Shown here: positions 29,411 to 56,800 of the stretch, in pieces
How the letters are laid out: each line of letters starts with the position of its first letter
Numbering within the stretch: the first letter of the stretch is position 1
Assembly (NCBI GenBank): GCA_000310025.1
Contig: FN649751.1
Location: 6,482,717 to 6,546,716 of the forward strand
DNA: 64,000 bases
Origin: Ectocarpus siliculosus
Lineage: Eukaryota > Sar > Phaeophyceae > Ectocarpales > Ectocarpaceae
Reading direction: 5' to 3'
Position numbers and translations under genes: made by a program
Notes under the pieces: model-generated
What the model was told of the DNA's origin: nothing
What the model saw: the letters and a program-made list of their open reading frames with translations, nothing else
Databases searched by the model: none

Positions 29411-32162
29411 CTACTGTATATTAATTGATCTCTAGGCTGTCCTGTAGAATAATAGCTGATGGTGGTGCTCGGAGCATGTACCCCTACTTTACCAGCTCCA
29501 CACGGATGGTTCATTTCACAAGCTGGCAAAGCGGGCACGCGGGCACGCGGGCACCGATGTCAGAACCAGTTCTCAGTCGACCCGAAACGATTTCAGAACC
29601 TGCTCTCGCACCTTTGCGCACCCTGTGCGCGTGTGCCTCTTTTCTCGAGCATCTCTGGTGTCCCCTTCTTTCTTTCTTCCTGGCCGACGACCGAGTATTG
29701 GCACCAATGGACGACATGATTGATCACCAAGGTGAGAGATTGGCGCTGCTATGGACTATGTGGACTTCGGGACTCCGCACATAATCCAGATTACATTTGC
29801 TGTATCAGACAGCAGCAGTCCAAGTCCATGTATGTAGATAAACCCCGCACACCCCTGTAGTGGAACTCACTCCCATGGAGGGCTGCACAGTTGCAGAGGG
29901 GGATACTGCCTTCGGCGAGTTGGTGTCACCGTGATGGTCTGTTGGAGTAGGTGACCCTTTCCGTGGAAGGTTTGACGTGCAGTCTAGAGCGTCATTCTGA
30001 CCCTGTAGGTTGCGTTAGAACCCCCCCCCCCCCCGAAAGCGGCTTCACATCCATCCGTGCTGTGGCATGGAATGAGACCACTCCGCCTGAAGTAAAAGTT
30101 TGAATTAGCCTGAGGTACAAGGTTGATCAAGTACCTGGCTGAGGTTACTTCTTATTGGAGGTTTTTCCGCGTAAGCGAAAGAACAGCTCGGAGCGATGGC
30201 GGAGTTTTCACGGTTGTTTTCGAGAAAAACTGGTGAGGTTTGTTCAGATGGAGATTATCTTCTCCTTTCTCCTGTGTGCGCGTGTGCGCACGTGAAATAA
30301 CACCCCCTGCTGCTACAGCGCCCCTTGAATTTGGTGCTGTTCTCAACTCTCCGTGCGGTGTTTGTCCGTGTCCTCGGTTCGCACATCTTTTCGCCGATTT
30401 AAGAGTCGTTCGGGGACTGATTTACGTGCATTAGTCTAGTTGCAAACCTCCGGCATTTTCATAAAACCTTCAGCACCTTCCCTCCCCCCAAACAATAGCC
30501 AGTTCAGCTCATCATACCCCGTTTGTCCTTCCATTGCAATACCCTTCAGGCACCCTTTCGGACACACCTGAAATAACCGTATCGTCTATGCACACACCAT
30601 CTTGGACGACAAGAGGCTAGACCGCAGCGATCAGAACACACTAGGAGCAGAGCAAAATCCATGCCCGGTGTGTTGGGGCAGTTTCAACAATTGGAAGCCC
30701 ACATCGTGCTCTCTCTTGTGCCATCAAACATGGCGCACATGTGACACCCACAACATGCACACGGGCACCGCGGTTTGTTTAAGTTTTTTTTCTCGATCTC
30801 GCCCGTGATGCCGCCCAAGCCCTAACTTTCACACCCGTTGCAGAGAGACAACCGGGCATCTCCGCTGGCGGCTTTCCCTATCAACATACCACAGAGGGTG
30901 TTCGTGTGAGTTTTTTGGACCGCGAGAGGGGGTTGGGAACCGCGAGAAGTCGAGGTGCTTTGTTTTGAGCTCACAGTACCGATTTGGCCACTCCTGTGGT
31001 GGTTGTCAGGGCTTCTCAATGCCACGTAGCCGCCATTCCTACATCTGTGTGGTACCAGGAGTGTCGTCGGTTATTGGGGTCTACAGTGTAGCGCTGCTCT
31101 TTGTTGTGTACTGCTGTGAGATTTGTGAGAGATTTCTCGCGGCCCGAGCGGAGGGGGGCTCGCAACAAGAATTCGGTGGGGGGCGAAGTGCTAAAAGGGC
31201 ACATCCGCATGGTGAGAGTACATCCTGAAATTCGCCACGGGGATCATTCCCCCAGCCTAGTGAGGTACTTCTTCGCATCATGGGTAGTGATACTGTGATG
31301 AATCGCCGAAAAAACTCCCCCATTCCAGGGTTTCTAGTGTCAGCTCAACCTGAGCCAGCCCTCACATTGCAATGTTCGAATAGTGGCGAGTTGTGTACAA
31401 CCATGACGAAGGAGGAACATCCTACCCCGGCCGCGGGCATACCCATGGTAACCATAGTGAGAGTGGGACAGCAGTGGCAGCAACAGCAGCAGTAGCTAAG
31501 CAAATGTCGTATTGAAAGCATTAACACTCCCTTGGCACGAAAACCTTGTCTCGGGGAATGGTTTTCACTCGTTCAGGAAACACAAGACACAGAGCAATGA
31601 AGCTGTTGAGGTATTCGGTATTGACAAGTATGTTGTGCTGCCTTGCCCGCACGAAGCACCATTGGCTGGCCTTGCGCGCCAAAGAGCAGCGTTGCGCTTC
31701 TGACTTGAATTCACGCGAGAGTCGAGAGACGGCGGAATCGACGGCAACAAAAGGAATCTGACAAAGCACAGAGACTCGCCCTAACATCGTATGTTGCCCT
31801 CACATGCTCACCCCGAAATCCACGTGGCTTTCTGTCGAAGGTATGTTTTGTTTTGAACCTGGAACGCTACTTGCAGAAACCATTGCAGTATTTTGCCAGT
31901 CTCGCCGCTAGGTACGTCCCCACGGCTTCGCGCTTCAAGCTACCCGCGCCCCGTTTGTCGCGGAGAGATCGACTGAAGGGGGTATACATGCCTCCTGGTG
32001 GTTCTCACACCGCCTCGCGTTCCCTTTTCCAGCGGCTTCTGCTGCCTCACACCAACGTGTATCGAACGGCCCGCTGTTGTGCCTCAGGATACAACTGAAG
32101 CTGATATTCTTCTTGACTTTTCTTTGTGTGCGGTTGCCGTACGTTTTGGTGCTGGCGTCCGT
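29411..32162. other. Spacer without a supportable gene
   Basis: Contains a poly-C run near 30018-30033, a short CGGGCACG tandem near 29537-29555, and scattered short frames. One near 31.55-31.76 kb gives a basic peptide of no known family. No gene, RNA or mobile element recognised. Confidence 0.35.
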
Positions 32163-33356
32163 ATGTGTGCAGAGAGGAGTCGGTGCCTTGACGCCTTCAT
32201 CGTCGCCTTGAGCCAAGCGTGCGAGGGAGGGGGGAAGCAGTGGTACGCGTCTACGCTGGAGCTGCAGCTGACGTCGCTAGATTTCTGCAGGGCATGCAGG
32301 AGCGTCCCAACGCTGGACGTGTCTGTCGATGAGCATACACCCCATAGCTATTGGGCTCCAAATACGACGCAGACCCGGCCGATTACACGCAGCTCGAAGG
32401 TGGCTCGCATCTCGAGCCGGGTGCCGGCCGTCCGGGCTGCCGGCTTGACGTGGGGGCTTCTATTAGAGGTCCTGTTGCAGAGTACCGCGATGGAGCTGTG
32501 GGGATGGTCGAACGTTCTACGACTGCGCGGGGCTGTGGATTCAGCTAGCCTTGAGTCGGTGACTTGGCCGCCGCGGCTGAAACTGTTGTCGTTTGGAGAT
32601 GGCTTCAACCAGCCCATCGCCGGAGTTGCGTGGCCGGCCTTTCTGCGGGAGCTCTTGTTTGGAGATGACTTCAACCAGCCTATCGCATGTGTTGTGTGGC
32701 CGGCCTCCCTACAGCAGTTATCTTTCGGAGTTTTCTTCAACCAGCCTATCGCCGGAGTTTTGTGGCCGGCCTCTCTGCAGCAGCTGTGGTTTGACAACGA
32801 CTTCCACCAGCCTATTGCCGGAGTTGCGTGGCCGGTCTCTCTGCAGGAGCTATCGTTCGGAGAATTGTTTGACCAGCCAGTCACCGGAGTCGTGTGGCCG
32901 GACTCTCTGCAGCATTTGTCGTTTGGAACTGCCTTCAACCAGCCTATCGCCGGAGTTGTGTGGCCGGCCTCCCTACAGCAGCTGTGTTTTGGACCTTTCT
33001 TCAACCAGCCTATCGCCGGAGTTGTGTGGCCGGCCTCCCTACAGCTGCTGTTTTTTTCAAATTGCTTCTGCCAACCTATCGAAGGAGTTGTGTGGCCGGC
33101 CTCCATACAGGACCTGTCGTTTGCAGGCTGCTTCAACCAGCCCATTGCCGGAGTTGTGTGGCCGGCCTCTCTGAAGCAGCTATCGTTCGGATATGCATTC
33201 AACCAGCCCATCGACGGAGTTGCGTGGCCGGCGTCTCTGCAGGAGTTGTCGTTCGGGGATAGCAGTAATGGGTCAAAATTTTCCCAGTCTATTGACGGGA
33301 TTGAATGGCCGACCTCCCTTCGCGCTGTGATTCGTGCGGGAGTCCATCTGCTATGA
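32163..33356 (+). CDS. FNIP-type leucine-rich repeat protein
   Basis: Single-exon frame of 397 codons from ATG 32163 to TGA 33356; an upstream in-frame extension exists without an ATG, and a later ATG near 32490 is also possible. Residues 1-140 are unremarkable. From 32604 there are eleven repeats, ten in the main register of 22 residues, built on F-N-Q-P-I-x-G-V-V-W-P-A-S-L-Q-x-L-x-F-G. This is the FNIP subclass of leucine-rich repeats, in which Asn, Pro and Ile follow the aromatic residue. Two or three positions per repeat vary strongly while the frame is nearly invariant, as in a binding surface. No signal peptide, kinase, GTPase or F-box was seen, so the ligand is unknown. It lies amid repeats and could be one copy of a multigene family or a decaying one. 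Confidence 0.7.
   Translation: MCAERSRCLDAFIVALSQACEGGGKQWYASTLELQLTSLDFCRACRSVPTLDVSVDEHTPHSYWAPNTTQTRPITRSSKVARISSRVPAVRAAGLTWGLLLEVLLQSTAMELWGWSNVLRLRGAVDSASLESVTWPPRLKLLSFGDGFNQPIAGVAWPAFLRELLFGDDFNQPIACVVWPASLQQLSFGVFFNQPIAGVLWPASLQQLWFDNDFHQPIAGVAWPVSLQELSFGELFDQPVTGVVWPDSLQHLSFGTAFNQPIAGVVWPASLQQLCFGPFFNQPIAGVVWPASLQLLFFSNCFCQPIEGVVWPASIQDLSFAGCFNQPIAGVVWPASLKQLSFGYAFNQPIDGVAWPASLQELSFGDSSNGSKFSQSIDGIEWPTSLRAVIRAGVHLL
32604..33344 (+). repeat. Array of eleven 66-bp FNIP-coding repeats
   Basis: Period exactly 66 bases from 32604 through 33198. The tenth unit has a 15-base insertion (extra residues near SSNGSK). The last unit, from 33279, is diverged (FSQSIDGIEWP). The high DNA identity between units suggests recent unequal exchange or gene conversion. 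Confidence 0.85.
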
Positions 33357-41166: not shown

Positions 41167-43481
41167 ATGACCACGGAAGCGCTGGACCTGGGCTCGACTG
41201 CATGGGAGGACGGTGGCTCCCTACGTTGGCCAATGACTCTGGCGGAGCAATAAACCATCCCGGGGAGGGTCAGCATCGAGGTGAACGCCCTGTTGCCGGG
41301 CCCCCAGCCCCACACGGCCCAGCTGCTGGTCGTCTTCCCCCTCAGGAGGTTCGACCCTCAGAACGAACCAGGTATCAGCGTGGCCCGAGGAGTGCAGTGG
41401 TGGAGGCCCGGCACTCTTCCGAAGCTCAAGTTGGTCAACCGCACAACCACCCCCAAGTCCATCGGGGCGGAGGTGCAGGTCGCCATGGCCTACGCCACCA
41501 ACTGTGACGACATAGAGAAGATGGTGCTGCTCAAGGAAACGATGCCGACACTATCGCCGACGCGGCTGACGCCGGAACCAACGCCCTCGGATGCCACGCC
41601 GCTACCGGACCCACCTGCGGAGCAGGGCATACGCATCAGCGAAGCGAACACTGGACAACTCGGCCCCAAGTCACGCGCCCGGCTCCTCGACAGCATCGGC
41701 GAGGCAAACAAGAATGGACTGTTCCCCTCCAACCCCACGATCGTAGATGCCCTGCCGGGACGCGAGGTGCCGACCCCTCTGGTGGATGAAAACGTCACGC
41801 CGGTTGCTTGCAAACAGCAACAGTACACCCCCATTCAAGCCGACATCGTCAACAAGCAAGTCGATCTCTGGTCGACAACGGGTGTGGTACGCCCGTCGAC
41901 TTCCGCCTGGTGTAGCCGTACCTCGATTGTGAAGAAGAAGGACGGAAGCAACCGCGTGACGGTCGACTACCGACCGCTCAACGCCGTCACGAAGAAAGAT
42001 AGCGGAGGCATCGGCACGCTGGCGACCATGCACCACCGCATCAAGGGCAGTAAGTTCTTCACACTCCTCGACTTGCCATCAGCGTATCATCAACTCAGCA
42101 TACGCGAGGTCGACCGCCACAAGACAGCCTTTAGGGATGCGCGGGGTCGACTCTACGAGTTTACAAGGTGTGGTTTTGGACTCACGACCATTCCCGCGGT
42201 CTTCTCCGCCCACCTAGGCGACACCCTCCGGGAGGTAGAGACCGAGGGAGACGTAGAACGATGGCTAGACGACATACTCGTGCACGGCGCCACCCTGGAC
42301 GAACACCTCGCTCTTATCGAGAGGGTCTTTGGCCTCTTACACGGAGCAGGGTACTCAGTGCACTTCCGCAAGTGTGTGTTCTGCATGGCAGAGGTGGAGT
42401 TCCTCGGCGTCATGGTCGGCCGGGCGGGTGTACGATCCTCGCCCTCCAAGATCAAGGCGGTACGGGAGCTAAAGATGCCCACTACCGTGGGAGAGGTAAT
42501 AGCATTTCTGGGATTCGCCGGCTTCCTACGGAGCTTCGTCCCGGACTTTAGCGCACTCACGGCGCCGATCACGGACTTGCTGCGGGATGCGGCGTTCAGC
42601 TCACGCCGAGCACGCAACCGCCGTGTACCGTGGGGCACCCCGCAGACCGAAGCCTTCCGATCAATCATCGGCGCCCTCATCTCCCACCCGGTGCTAGCGA
42701 CACCAGACTGGGGACTCCCCTTCTCGCTGCACACGGACGCCAGCGAGCTAGCAGCAGGAGCGGTTCTCACCCAAGCCGTCGAGGGACGCGACACACCTCT
42801 GGGGTACGGCAGCCATCGTTTCACCCGGAGCGAGGAGAAGCTCTCCCCCAACGACCGCGAGGTCCTCGGAGTGCTGTACGGCATTGAGCAGTTCAGAACT
42901 TACCTGCAACACCGTAGATTTACACTGATCACTGACTGTGCAGCTCTGACGTGGCTGTTCACCAGCCAAAACCTATCTTCAAAGATGCACCGGTGGTCTC
43001 TACGGTTGATGCAGTTCGACATCGACCTCCAGTGGCGCAAAGGCAAAGACCATACGGCCCCGGACGCCCTATCCCGACTGCGCCGCAAAGGACCGCCGGA
43101 GCCGGCAATCGACACAGCGTTCCCCGACGACACTACGCAGCCGGTGGAAAACCAAGGCCCCACAGGACCTGTACTGGATGGTGTACCGCTCAGGACCCTG
43201 GCACCACCCGCTGACGAACGAGACGGCGACCCTACCCCACTGGAGTCGGCGGAAGACATCCACCTGGATCGGGATGACGAGCCTGTACTGGATGGCGTCC
43301 ACCTCACCGCACTAGGCCCCACCGAGCCCTCCCGAACGCCGGAGATGAGCCTGGCCGCCTTCTACGCCCTACAACTCACGCCGGAGCCTCTGGAGGATGG
43401 TGATCTTCAGCGACGTCGGAACTACGAGGACACACGTTCCGCCCTGGCTCCGAGACTGCCACGGGCTGTCATCCTCGACTG
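41167..43481 (+). pseudogene. pol: pol part 1: reverse transcriptase and RNase H
   Basis: A frame from ATG 41167 is broken by TAA at 41251, then open to 43644. Residues after the stop (TIPGRVSIEVNALLPG) resemble the segment following protease in Ty3 elements. Reverse transcriptase spans about 41.86-42.46 kb: RVTVDYRPLNAVTKKD, FFTLLDLPSAYHQLSI, FGLTTIPAVFSAHL, and the catalytic box W-L-D-D at 42262-42273, where Y/F-x-D-D is usual. LGVMVGRAGVRSSPSKIKAV and FLGFAGFLRSFVPDFS follow, as expected. RNase H at about 42.72-43.08 kb shows LHTDASELAAGAVL, REVLGVLYGIEQFRTYL and TDCAALTWL, ending with the K-D-H-T-A-P-D-A-L-S-R motif. The frame leaves coding register near 43480. It belongs to the chromovirus-like Ty3 group by layout. 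Confidence 0.85.
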
Positions 43482-44354
43482 TGAGCTGGCGGAGCACTGC
43501 TGGCGCTCCAGGGCCTCCTGCACGTCCAGGCCGCCGTCGAACCGGACTGGATCACGTTGGAGTGTGCCCGGTTCAACAAATGGAGCCGAGGAATCCAGCT
43601 GGTACGCTCGCCCCTCTCAGGCAAGCACTGCATGCACACACTAGCGGAGGCGCGACCGGAGGTCCTCATCGGTAACGCATGTCGCCGATACCACGCTCAC
43701 AGCCACGGGGAGACCGCCGCACACCAGGCAACGGAAATCACCGAGACCTTCACCGCTTCGCGGGCGCAACTCCTGCTCATGGAGTGCCCAGCGGGGTTCG
43801 CAAGGACCCCGGCCTGGCGCGACGACCTGCGACCGCGCTTGGAGCAAGCCCGGTGTACCGTAGAGGACGCCACCCTGTATGCTACGGATGTTGGCGTTCC
43901 AACTGGGAAGTGCCGAGTATTCATAGTGGCCATCAGGCGGCGCCCCGACATCCCACCCGAGACCTCCGCGTCGAAGCTGGCCCTGTGGAAGCGGCACTTA
44001 CAGCAGAGAGTGACCACGAAGCCGACCGTGGGTGCGCTGCTGGGACGCCAGGGCCACTTCTTCCTGAACCGTCCGACCGGCGACAAGGGAGTCTTCAGTT
44101 TCGCGCAACCGGCGGTCACCATCACGCATGGGATCATCATGGGCCGCCGACCGACGGAGTACCAGCCTCACCCGGCCGATGACGGACCCTTCGCCAAGGC
44201 GGAGGACCTGTCACAGGAAGAGTTTGTGCAGCTCACTACGTGCCTGACGGACTTCACCGTCCCACCGAGCGTGCGACGGATTAATGTCGCAAGGGCGCTG
44301 GAAGAGTTCACCCTGCCCCCCATGCTACGGGAAGCCTTCAGCGCGCTGGGCATC
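43462..44354 (+). pseudogene. C5-cytosine DNA methyltransferase-like domain within pol
   Basis: About 295 residues between RNase H and integrase align in order with Dcm/DNMT motifs. Motif I: ILDCEL in one frame, then AGGALLALQGLLHVQAAVEP in the next, so the frame break falls inside it. Motif IV: LIGNACRRYHAHS, where P-C-Q is expected; the Cys is kept (codon at 43680) but Pro and Gln are replaced. Motif VI: LLLMECP for E-N-V. Motif VIII: ATDVGVPTGKCRVFIVAIRR. Near IX: GVFSFAQPAVTITHG and Y-x-x-H-P-x-D-D. Motif X-like end: LPPMLREAFSALGI. The reaction would be transfer of methyl from AdoMet to cytosine C5. The changed motif IV and the frame break make activity doubtful for this copy. Family membership is inferred from motif order and spacing, not from a search. 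Confidence 0.75.
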
Positions 44355-44499
44355 CACGGCATCGTCGACCGCAACGCCGACCATCGTGGTACCATGGAAG
44401 ATGAGCTGGCGATCGCCCTGGCCAACCTGTGGACAGACTCCACTGACCATATCGCCACCCTGGACACTGCGGCAGCGGACCAGGCACGCTTCGTCGTGA

Positions 44500-44960
44500 T
44501 TCCACGAGTCACGAGGGGTATGGCCCGCCGAGCAACACGACCAACTCCAACCCCCAGCACCACACCGCCACCACGGGAGACGGCGAACGCTAGCGAACAT
44601 CGCAACCGCGACCCTGGGAAGGAGCCCAGGCGTCGGCCACCGCCGACCCCGCCCGCCGCAGAGCCAAGCACAAAGGAACCCGCGCACCCCGGAACAGCCG
44701 CGGCACCCGTCCAAGAACCGGCACCGCCCCCGGTGCCGCGGGTGCCACCCACTGACGCTGTGGCTGGCCCCGCGCCAACGACCGCACCGCCGCCGCCGTC
44801 GACGCCACCCCCTACACCGGCGACGCCGCGGGAGAACCCCCGGGACGGCAACATCCCGCTGGACACGCCGGACCTACGACGGGGTCTGTCTGCCAAGCTA
44901 GCGCAAATGGAGGACACCCTGCGCGAAACCGCCAAGCTCGTGGACGCGCAGCGGCGAGAC
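44500..44960 (+). other. Proline-rich linker between methyltransferase and integrase
   Basis: In the same frame as the second half of the methyltransferase, about 150 residues rich in Pro, Thr, Ala and Glu (for example PTPTPSTTPPPRETANAS). It joins the inserted domain to the integrase zinc finger. Presumed flexible; no domain recognised. Confidence 0.6.
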
Positions 44961-44999
44961 CCAACACTTCGATGCCTCCGGGCCGATTTGGAAGCGGGA

Positions 45000-46692
45000 C
45001 GTGGAGAGGACAACAATTACGTCCTGGCCGACGACCATCTGCTGTGGCACGCCCCGCGCGGCCGCGCGTATGCGATCGCCGTTCCCAAACAGCTGGTTCC
45101 CGCCGTGCTGGCGTTGGTCCACGGCACGTACGGCCACCCTGGAGCAGCGCGCACTACCCTCTTAGTTGAGCGCAAATACCACTGGACGACTCTCAAGAAG
45201 GACGTCCGAGCTTATGTCGTGTCGTGCAAGTGCCGCCGGCGGAAGCGGGCCTGGAGCAAGCAGCTGCTCATGATGCCGGCACGGCTCCTCCAACCGTGGG
45301 AGGTGCTGGAGATGGATATCCAAGACCTCAAGGTCACGTCCGACAAGGGCAACCGCTACCTACTCGTGGTGGTCGACCGGGCCTCCAAATTCCTGACAGC
45401 CTTCCCGCTCCAGTCCAAGGAAGCTATTGGGGTGAGCCGCAAGCTCCTGGGGCTCTTGCTCGTATTCGGCCTGCCCCTCTCCATCCCCTCTGATGCGGCA
45501 CCTCTGCCGATGGCTGAAAGTACCGCTGAACTACGGCCCCACCAACCACCCCCGCGCACAAGGAGCGGTCGAGAGGTTGGGGGGGTGGCTGCACGAGGCC
45601 TTGTCCCATCTGTGCACCGCGTGGCCCAAGCGGTGGGACGAGTTCGTGCCCGTGGCTACCTGGATCCACCGGGTGACACCCGACGCGGCCTTGCCCGGCG
45701 GAGCGTCCCCTTACCGAGTCCTATTCGGTCGGGAACCACGGAGCCACATCGACGTCGTCTCCCCAGCCCTGAACGACAGCTCCTTCGGCCACGGACTCGA
45801 GCGGACTGTCGCAGATCAACAACGCATGACGCGGGAGATCCTCACCTGCCGCCACGAGGCCCAGAACCGTCAGCGGGAACGCCACAATGCCCGGGTAGCG
45901 CGGGAGTCACCAGGAGCCAAAGCAGCCATCGGAGACGCCGTCCTCGTCAAGGAACCGGCCAACACGCTACACCGAGACAGCCACCACCCGAAGCTCACGC
46001 ACGACCACTACACCGGTCCGTGGAAGGTCACCAACGTCATCCACGACCGCCTAAGCTTCGCGGTTCAACTCAACGGCCGCCGGATCCGCCGACGCAAAGT
46101 GGCAGCGCCCGACCTCAAGCCCTACCACGTGCGACCGCAGGACCTCCGGCTGCCGTTCGAGGACGAGGTTGCGCATCTCGTGTGGTCGTCCGACCTTGGC
46201 CTGGCCGACACCTCCGTCGTCGCTGTGCCGCTGTACACGCTCGTGGACCGACGGGTGGTATACGGCACCGGTAACACGACGACGTGGACATGGGAGTACC
46301 AAGGCCGTTACCAAGATGGTGCCCTCTCGCCTTGGATGACTGAGGATGAGGCCGGCGACAGCTTCTCGCCACTCCAGCTGGACGTCTTTCACGCGCTATA
46401 CGAGGACTACCACGGCGAGGACGCCACCCCACGACCCGCCGGACCGCCTACCCGGGCCGAACGCGAAGTAGCGTCCAGGGAGCAAGCGTTGCAGCTCTTT
46501 CCTATGGGGACGCCAGTTGGTCGAGAATTTGCCGACACCGACGGACAGCTCAAGGTTTTCAAGGCCAACGTCTTGGACTACTGCAACCCCTACTGGCGTG
46601 TGGAGTACCCGGACGGAGATTGGGAGGAACTCACGAAGCGCGAAATGGATACGGGCGTCGGCGTTGCCGCTCGACCATCCCTCTCCGCTTAA
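45000..46692 (+). pseudogene. pol: pol part 2: integrase with Tudor-like C-terminal tail
   Basis: The zinc finger at about 45.08-45.25 kb reads VHGTYGHPGAARTTLL ... AYVVSCKCRRRK (His, His, Cys, Cys). The DDE core has D in LEMDIQDLK, D in IPSD (codon 45492), then a frame change. The next frame (45493-46692) continues HLCRWLKVPLNYGPTNHPRA, QGAVERLG with the catalytic Glu, and RWDEFVPVATWIHRVTPDAA. About ten residues expected between the second Asp and HLCRWL are missing, so a deletion of 3n+2 bases is likely. The tail has a GPWKVTNVI barrel (G-P-F/Y family), a W-x-Y-Q-G-R segment that may be chromo-like, and YWRVEYPDGDWEELTKREM, which resembles Tudor-type modules in algal and plant proteins. 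Stop TAA at 46690. Confidence 0.8.
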
Positions 46693-47486
46693 CTCTGGAC
46701 TACGGCCTACTACCACTGCCTAGAGCCCGCCGACTGTCGTCTGGCGGCCTGGGGGGGTGTACCGGCAGTGGAAGAATGTGCAGGAGTACCACGTCGTCTA
46801 CGCAGCGGGGGAGACCCAGATTTTAGCTGGGCAGGTAAGTATAAACCGTGTATGGGCACCGTGCGGCCGCCCCGTTAGCATAGCCGTGTACCACGGTCAA
46901 TGCTGGGGGGGTGTTCCGGACGGCCGCGTACACCGGTGCTAAATAGTGCGATGATGGACACTCGTGACGCAAGGCGCAAGTGTCCGGAGCGCTCGTCCCT
47001 GTGATGGGCACTGCATATGTGCTCGGAGGGGGTTTCCCGAGAAGATGTAACCGTCGCTCGGGCTAATAATGGAAACCAATGGAAGAATTCCGATTGGTTA
47101 CCATTCCCCGTGCGATGATGAAACGGTTCCTCCGCATGACAGCTTGCAGCGATCCCGCCCCCCAAGCTGTCAGTGGCCTTTGAGTCCGGAAACTGAGCAC
47201 AAACCCTTTGTGAACGAACCTGACCTGAGCGCTACTGATCTGCTATCGCAACTGTGAGTGATGACCCCGCCTGCCTGACTGGATCATGAAGTATCATCTG
47301 CCTGCTTGGAGTACTACTGCTTGCTCGCTTGTGTTGATGATGGAACGCTTGGCACATGTCTACAATCGAACTCGCAGAGACTAGCTATGATCTGCGCGGG
47401 TGAGAGTGGCTTTGCCTGGAATATCGTAGATTAGCCCTGTCTCTGTAAGAGTTGTTGTTGTCAGAGTGGAATAATATCCACGCGGT
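46693..47486. other. Putative 3' LTR of the retrotransposon and spacer
   Basis: After the integrase stop, a G-run precedes TGTACCGGCAG at 46757, where a 3' LTR would begin. A TATA-like GTATAAACC lies at 46837-46845. The LTR end cannot be fixed because no 5' LTR is present for comparison. Nothing else is supportable up to the Helitron remnant. Confidence 0.35.
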
Positions 47487-53800: not shown

Positions 53801-56800
53801 CCCGTGCAGCCGCGCTCCTCGCTCTCTTCTAGTGCGTTCTCTGTTTTTCGGGTTGTGCGATGGGAGTAAAGGGACGCGGAATTCTGGTTATGGCCTGGCG
53901 TTTTTCTGCTATGTTGGGCGGGGACTTGGGTGCGAGACTGGTACACCTTGGAGGTGGCGTTTCTGTCCAAGCAAACAACGCGCGAAAAGTCATCCATCAT
54001 GCATTGCCAAAGCTTTAAACATTTCAACCACGCAAAATGTAATTTCCATTGTCCTGTTCGTCTAAAAGCTCAAACGAAAACGGAATACTTCTATTTTGGC
54101 CAGCCCTCTCCCGCCAGACAACATGCAATGCTTGTTTGCGAAAACGGTAGCAGGAAGCAGAGCAGTCGAAACGAATGCGGCTGAGATCCTTCGAATGATT
54201 GGGACTGTGCAAAACCTGGGATGAAATGTACAGATCGCGGGACATACCAACCACCAGGGGCACTGCTTGACCGATTCCCGCTCAACGGAAGCGGTCCGTA
54301 CTGATCCAGGCCGTGACAGAACAGCCGGCCCCGTTCGAACCAACCTCTACCAGCTGTGCCGCCCGTCGAAACGGACGTTGTTTGGCTGGTACAACCCGCC
54401 ATTCTTCATACAAAAACCACATTTTTCTCCTACAAATAGTGTGGTCGTCAACCTACATATAGTCTAGCCCCAACGTTTCATCCATGTAGTTGTGAGTGGC
54501 TTCACCCTCGTTTCCATTCCCCTTTGGGGACCACACCAATGGTTCACGCAGTTTCACCGCTAGGGTGTAAGTCCCAAGGTTCATGTCCCCGAAATGCTTT
54601 TCGCGTGTCATTGTCAGAGCTTGCATGTTCCAGGAAGCTCTCTGCACTTCACAGCTACAGCAATCAGGAGGGTTTTGTGTGTACGAAGCGACAAGCGTAG
54701 GCTAGCGATGCGGTGGGTTTCCGGTTGGTACCGTGACCGTGCAGTCGTTAGCCCTAGCAACACTTTTCCCTCGTGGCCGATGTTTTCCTTTGTGAGGCGG
54801 CCCTTGCATGCCCCTCCAATCAAAGGCGACAGACCCCTCCCCAAGAGAACTGGGGGAGGGAGCTGCGAGACTGGGAAAATCTAGCTCTGGTGCAATTCGG
54901 CAACGAACCATCCCCAAGGATTCAAATGGAACGAGGGTTAGGCTCACGAGCTCGCGAACGGGCCGCCCGCATCATCGCATGCTCACCTGTGATGGCCTGT
55001 TGACGGAATTCATAAGTGCTCATCGCGCTGTGACCCCCGCAAATTTCGCCGTCGTCGCTCCCGCTGCACTCCATGTTACAATTCGTCGCCTCGCCGAACA
55101 TGAGGTGGTCGGCGTCGGCGTCCTCCGGACCGCACCAGCACTCTCTGGACCACTGTGTCCCGAACTGCCTGGACCCGGCGCACAGCTCTTCGCAGAGCTG
55201 CGCGGGCCGCCGCCACCCCGTCACGAGCAACGATATTAGCGGCGCGATCGTCCCGTCAACACACGGAAGAGAAACGAATTCGTCCGAGAGAAGAGAGGTA
55301 TGTTTGTCCATCAAAAATGTTTTTCCACGTGTGGTCAACTCCGCCGTGCCAGAGGGTTGATCGTGTCACTCTTTGCATACATTGTAGTGTGCGGAATAGC
55401 CTTATTCTTGATGGGTCTTATCACCACTGGAAATAAACCAAACCCTTGGAATTGTGTCGTATATAGAGCAGGTGAAGCATGGGATGCACCGAAGTCCGTC
55501 TCGTGAGATCTGGATGAAGCTCGCTGTTCGACTCGCTGAACACCTCACGGCAGATCGCGTTTGGTGCAGGTGCGGCGAATCCGACATGGTCCATCCCAGC
55601 TTTTAATGTGAGACGAGGGTCTACACAGTGCGATTTGTCATTTTTACTGGTAATCCTCGACGCTGCCCGCTCGCTCTCTCCGTTTCACGCGAGGCTGGAC
55701 ACAACACAAAACACAACAAAACAACGACAGAAAGCAACAACAACTACTTCCACGACTACGACTACGGCTACGGCTACGGCTACGACAACGACAACGATGA
55801 CGACTGTGATGACGATGACGACTGTGATGACGACTACGACTACGACGACGGTCACCACGAACACAAACACAAACGCAAGACACATTCCTCGATTATAAGA
55901 GCCGCTGCGGATAGCAACAGAAACGGCAATCCCCGCTTTCCCCCTAAAGGTACCATGCAGACGACCGTACGTCGTATGCACACCTCTGTGGTCATGTCCC
56001 ACCGCCTTGCCGCCATCTCCATGAAACGTTCACGGTTTCGATTGTCCTCGAAACATCCAAGGTAGGTGTAGTCTGTGGCCGAGGGCGGGGGAGGCGCACA
56101 CGGGAAGGAGCAGACATCCCTTTGAGACAGTCCACGGGGGATGACAAATCGTGGGAATTAACAGATCAGGTCTGCAGTGGAGGAATTGTGCCATAGGCGT
56201 TATTGCGACGCAGGACGCGGTAGTTGACGTACGAGCATTGTCTAGCGCCATAAGGAGCACGAAACAATCTCGAATGGGCGAGAGACTAGGCGGGAGACAT
56301 TGACCAAGAAATGTTTTTCCTACATGCAGCTGTTCTTTGTTTTTCTTGTGTCGTCCTCATCCCTTCTCCCGCCATTGCTCGCAGGACTGACTTCCGCTTC
56401 AGGATTGAATCGTTTCGTACCGAAGAGATCCAATCTAGACTAACACAGAGCGGTCTATGCCACTCATCTTCGTTTTTTTCGCGAAACGGGTCAGTTGTTC
56501 CTTCCCTCCAATACGCACATGAAACTGAACTATCTACGGCGGTATTAGCTATTCAATATTGTTTTGGTGAGAGTTGAAACTCTGATTTGGTTATGACATG
56601 GTTTACACGGGATATCGTCGACTAAATCGGCGGGGGGACCTGTTTGAGTGTGGAAATATTATTGTAACGTATTTTCTGTTGTTCGGAGGATCTATTGTAG
56701 ATGTAATGGCGCACCAATGGGGAAAAAAGGGAAAAGTTGGTCATCCCGATGGACTAAGTGACTATTACTACACACGACAAGCTACCGCTTGGAATTCTCT

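Follow-up and report, generated by a model that had tools for sequence, protein, structure and literature searches.

We report a domain of the C5 cytosine methyltransferase (C5-MTase) type inside the pol region of a Ty3/gypsy retrotransposon, in a 64,000-nucleotide stretch of Ectocarpus siliculosus contig FN649751.1 (hereafter, the window). The domain (43441..44360, on the + strand like the rest of the element) sits between RNase H and integrase and is conserved, at that place, in related elements. A preliminary description of the window had proposed just such a domain at this position, and its relatives, a profile test, the predicted fold, and matches in PHROGs now support it. The description recognized the domain correctly; the intact relatives are more interesting than the broken window copy. 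On balance, we favor the reading that the window holds a dead member of a Ty3/gypsy family, most probably brown-algal, whose pol combines a divergent C5-MTase domain with, probably, a C-terminal Tudor-like reader, and whose intact copies would bind S-adenosylmethionine (SAM) and methylate cytosine before integration.

Organization of the element

The pol remnant is 5'-truncated, extends over approximately 41167..46692, and is spread over three frames, as traced by open reading frames (ORFs) and by tblastn with five related proteins (P0011, P0001, P0012, P0003, and P0002). The reading frame breaks at about 43483 and again around 45490-45568. Up to 43482, the first frame encodes reverse transcriptase (RT; 41929..42414, PF00078 E 5.5e-20), RNase H (42631..43017, PF17919 E 7.7e-24, PF17917 E 1.4e-27), and the first strand of the methyltransferase block (PRAVILDC). 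From 43485, a second frame, open past 45490, supplies the rest of the block (starting AGGALLAL), a proline-rich linker, and the start of the integrase, with its H2C2 finger and the beginning of its core domain (45081..45422; PF17921 E 4.5e-12; PF00665 (rve) E 8e-4, below cut-off). The remaining integrase follows in the third frame (45493..46692, 70% identity to P0011), which also holds a sub-threshold match to a PTM/DIR17-type Tudor domain (~46552-46650; PF21743, 18.9 bits in the window copy and 22.6 in P0011, against a cut-off of 27.2). The order RT, RNase H, integrase is that of Ty3/gypsy pol, and the block falls between the end of the RNase H Pfam match (~43017) and the start of the H2C2 finger (~45081).

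The window copy is dead as it stands, and it cannot make the enzyme because its reading frame is broken inside motif I. By tblastn, nothing in it matches the N-terminal 161 residues of P0011, and a repeat search together with tblastn found no paired long terminal repeats (LTRs) around this truncated copy. Past the pol stop (46693-47460, +), two mutually similar G-rich tracts (46749-46765 and 46903-46919) could mark a polypurine tract and a 3' LTR; a second LTR copy was not found.

Relatives and conservation of the domain

Relatives were sought with the block as query, and the resulting set thus consists of block-bearing elements. Searching with the block within its long ORF retrieved three proteins among 3261 candidates, P0001 (64% identity, 1451 aa), P0002 (48%), and P0003 (52%), all three of which also match RT and RNase H. 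A four-block profile added seven more among 8000 scored candidates (P0004-P0010, mostly fragments). With the P0001 block as query, we obtained eight matches, including itself, P0002, and P0003; the five new ones were P0011 (2024 aa, 62%), P0012 (1720 aa, 59%), and three partial proteins (P0013-P0015). Two of the relatives, P0009 and P0012, carry annotations as unnamed products from Ectocarpus sp. CCAP 1310/34, and it is on these two that we base the brown-algal assignment of the element. Pattern scans yielded no relatives, either in viral contigs with A2 (34 pattern matches) or in genome contigs with A3 (3 pattern matches). In P0003, a second RT piece follows the block (residues 1285-1458; two RVT_1 stretches, matching window 42262-42780), so this gene model may join two elements.

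The same block occupies the same pol position in relatives from several sources, and P0011 presents RT, RNase H, block, H2C2, rve, and the sub-threshold Tudor match, in that order, in a single open frame. Given these relatives, we give next to no credence to a chance or chimeric block in one dead element, arising from an unrelated piece of host sequence or a join made in assembly, even though the window copy is broken twice and has no paired LTRs; the column shuffles described below likewise led us to reject it. Across the ten pairs formed by five pol proteins, pairwise identity was 53-72% in the block and 58-80% in RT; in the linkers before and after the block, where some comparisons covered fewer than 60 residues, it was 28-50% and 16-40%, respectively. 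As judged by protein identity rather than by the ratio of nonsynonymous to synonymous substitution rates (dN/dS), this pattern suggests selection on the block.

Predicted fold and profile comparisons

The preliminary description had called for a structure prediction. Two were made, from alignments of nine sequences (A3, with P0006 and without P0014) and seven sequences (A4), and both gave the C5-MTase fold, with C5-MTases matching over nearly the whole domain. The block is thus assigned to this fold by prediction only. M.HaeIII, M.HhaI, DNMT1, DNMT2, and DIM2 resemble it in predicted fold and in the Cys and Glu positions, but share only 8-15% identity with it in the fold alignments, and the neighbors of these residues in motifs IV and VI are changed in the block. 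Fold matches within 1 Z are tied, and families missing from the VIA-align rows, such as DNMT3, are not thereby excluded. An NSUN-type RNA m5C enzyme was also considered, by its motifs only, and rejected; the fold matches speak against it.

Profile comparison points in the same direction. We built a profile from nine of the 16 block-bearing sequences (P0001-P0005, P0011, P0012, P0014, and the window; the others were short or frame-broken) and aligned it with 14 bacterial and phage C5-MTases, comprising 11 of 12 regions from E. coli and phages (one was too short) and three from plasmids. The score was 37.2 (E 2.4e-4), against 23.4 for the best of 100 column shuffles; in a comparison with 11 MTases the score was 34.0, whereas the highest value among 60 shuffles was 22.4 and the reversed profile reached 16.5. 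The match is centered on motif VIII; when the stringency is lowered, motif I, the Cys of motif IV, and the Glu of motif VI also line up. A hidden Markov model of the 14 MTases recovered seven of the nine block sequences at E 0.0015 or better (P0002 0.77, P0014 0.96), with those nine sequences as the database. Two PHROGs families, phrog_363 and phrog_116 (both DNA methyltransferase), each matched six of the nine A3 members (best E 1.4e-4 and 1.8e-4, respectively), with 0.033 and 9.7e-4 for the window copy.

Both peptides quoted in the preliminary description are present, ATDVGVPTGKCRVFIVAIRR from 43881 and then GVFSFAQPAVTITHG in the same frame. The motif series claimed there stands in part. 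Motif VIII (ATDVGVPTGKCRVFIVA, 43881..43931) is borne out as the center of the profile match, and motifs IV and VI are recognizable, but as GNAC (43671..43682) and ECP (43782..43790) rather than in the canonical PC and ENV forms. By eye, motifs IX and X can plausibly be placed, but the profile alignment does not line them up; the sequence at the motif X position, LEEFTLPPML (44298..44327), is a weak candidate that is conserved in relatives.

Several results weigh against the C5-MTase identification. The window block scores 10.8 bits against PF00145, whose curated cut-off is 22, as does P0012; the block is therefore not counted as a PF00145 member. Compared with PDB chains, the window block had no match at an E of 1 or less, and a four-sequence profile retrieved two non-C5 methyltransferases alone, at E 1.2 and over motif I. 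Among four A2 members, other Pfam families outscore PF00145, with one member each matching Prim-Pol (0.0046), MTS (0.044), Methyltransf_25 (0.078), Methyltransf_11 (0.13), and PF00145 (0.31); NCBIfam gave one weak unrelated match for four members. The HHalign probability against the 14 C5-MTases is 43%, and the C-terminal half is out of register in the profile alignment. The preliminary description had named the lack of a significant PF00145 match as evidence against its claim; that outcome is literally true, yet the match to the predicted C5-MTase fold is strong.

These weak matches could be taken to indicate a different Rossmann methyltransferase, of the small-molecule, N6/N4, or RNA type, whose likeness in motif VIII arose by chance. 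The single-member hits to MTS, Methyltransf_25, and Methyltransf_11 would agree with this, as would the matches to a release-factor methyltransferase and an N-methyltransferase, which cover motif I only. We consider it very improbable and rejected it, since in both models the proteins that match along almost all of the domain are C5-MTases and the profile test links motifs VI and VIII to the same enzymes.

Active-site residues and proposed activity

PC and ENV are the canonical forms of C5-MTase motifs IV and VI, and both were seen in the fetched MTases. We counted residues over the 16 block-bearing sequences. Of the rows that cover each position, 13 of 14 keep the motif II acid, 10 of 13 the Cys of motif IV, all 11 the Glu of motif VI, and 9 of 11 the final Arg of motif VIII. 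The likely SAM site and two main catalytic residues are thus retained, with changed neighbors. The residue before the motif IV Cys is Ala in 13/13 rows and Pro in 0/13, and none of the 11 motif VI rows retains the Asn or Val of ENV, the position reading ECP (9), ESP (1), or EYP (1). The changed motif IV neighbor and the three rows lacking the Cys count against catalysis, as does the CpG content: CpG is not depleted in the element (observed/expected 1.02, against 0.95 in the rest of the window). This fits an absence of heritable 5-methylcytosine (5mC), but an inactive domain would lead one to expect the same, which makes a domain that retains the fold but not the catalysis the main rival.

Under that explanation, pol would carry the C5-MTase fold as a nucleic-acid- or SAM-binding module, for example one that, together with the Tudor-like domain, helps to target integration. 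We regard this as quite possible, if short of probable. The invariant AC, the ECP/ESP/EYP forms in 11/11 rows, the undepleted CpG, and the reported absence of cytosine methylation in brown algae (in the available text of PMC13076208) all agree with it; the retention of the Cys, the Glu, and the SAM-site residues does not, as pure binding would not need them.

In the catalytic reading that we favor, the location of the domain inside pol suggests that it would be carried with RT into the particle. In intact copies, it would bind SAM and methylate cytosine in new cDNA, or in RNA or an RNA:DNA hybrid, before integration. The likeliest step, as has been put forward for SymbioDIRS-Dnmt3, is that the cDNA or the template RNA is methylated ahead of integration. 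If the host lacks a maintenance methylase, the mark would be short-lived and would act on cDNA not yet integrated, or at insertion, rather than as a heritable genome mark. More tentatively, and with some doubt, we raise the possibility that the DNA cytosine methylases native to brown algae have been lost, while an old retrotransposon lineage in these algae keeps a working C5-MTase, with an altered (AC/ECP) site, whose marks are confined to the element's own cDNA or RNA.

The Tudor-like PF21743 match at the pol C-terminus (in P0011 and at 46552-46650 of the window) and the C5-MTase domain form a possible pair of reader and writer.

Other features of the window

Away from the element, a 452-aa ORF of FNIP repeats (31998-33356, +; PF05725 E 3.2e-41) is encoded by a 66-nt tandem repeat in nine copies (32511-33338). 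An imperfect 12-nt repeat array (ACGACTACGGCTACG and similar) lies at 55728-55872.

Discussion

Retrotransposon DNMTs are known from dinoflagellates and charophytes (PMC5890265; repeated in PMC12344493), and the C5-MTase-type domain in a retrotransposon coding region places the window family among such elements. As described in the available text of PMC5890265, KnitGypsy-Dnmt3 of Klebsormidium nitens (de Mendoza et al. 2018) likewise carries a DNMT inside an LTR Gypsy Pol polyprotein, but it is of the DNMT3 class, conserves the key residues, is detected by PF00145, and resides in a host with a plant-like methylome. In the window family, by contrast, PC and ENV are changed, scores are under the PF00145 cut-off, the hosts are reported to be without 5mC, and no DNMT class is assigned. 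The same text describes two Symbiodinium elements, SymbioDIRS-Dnmt3 and SymbioLINE-Dnmt, as retroelement-encoded C5-MTases, the DIRS type in one ORF with reverse transcriptase; de novo CG methylation was shown for SymbioDIRS-Dnmt3. They differ from the window family in being DIRS and LINE rather than Ty3/gypsy elements and in the reported conservation of the canonical functional positions.

In Ectocarpus, Gypsy-10_Ec32 represents a Tudor-bearing Gypsy lineage with a C-terminal Tudor (PMC12477816), the same place as the sub-threshold Tudor-like match of the window family. This likeness is by description only, and the available text of that paper mentions no C5-MTase; it does describe a Sola1 DNA transposon with an N4C/N6A-type methyltransferase. 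In brown algae, according to the available text of PMC13076208, blastp and PF00145 indicated a complete absence of DNMTs save DNMT2, which acts on tRNA. For Saccharina, PMC6916402 describes DNMT2 homologues only and ~1.4% of cytosines as methylated, which conflicts with brown algae free of 5mC. We found no earlier report of the present domain in the open-licence literature, supplements excluded.

The finding bears on how such domains are sought, as the brown-algal survey and the 2018 survey of retrotransposon DNMTs both relied on PF00145 (in the available text of PMC13076208 and PMC5890265, respectively), which this domain escapes. It also opens to direct test the question of what use a DNMT is to a retrotransposon. 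An inactive domain would mean that a retroelement has retained the C5-MTase fold for another use, which would also be new. If the domain is active, it would represent a further capture of a C5-MTase by a retroelement, in hosts without maintenance methylation, where 5mC on cDNA or fresh insertions could be attributed to the element, offering a clean test case. Should the AC/ECP enzyme work, all DNA 5mC in a lineage believed to lack it would come from a selfish element, and the enzyme's active site would be of a new form.
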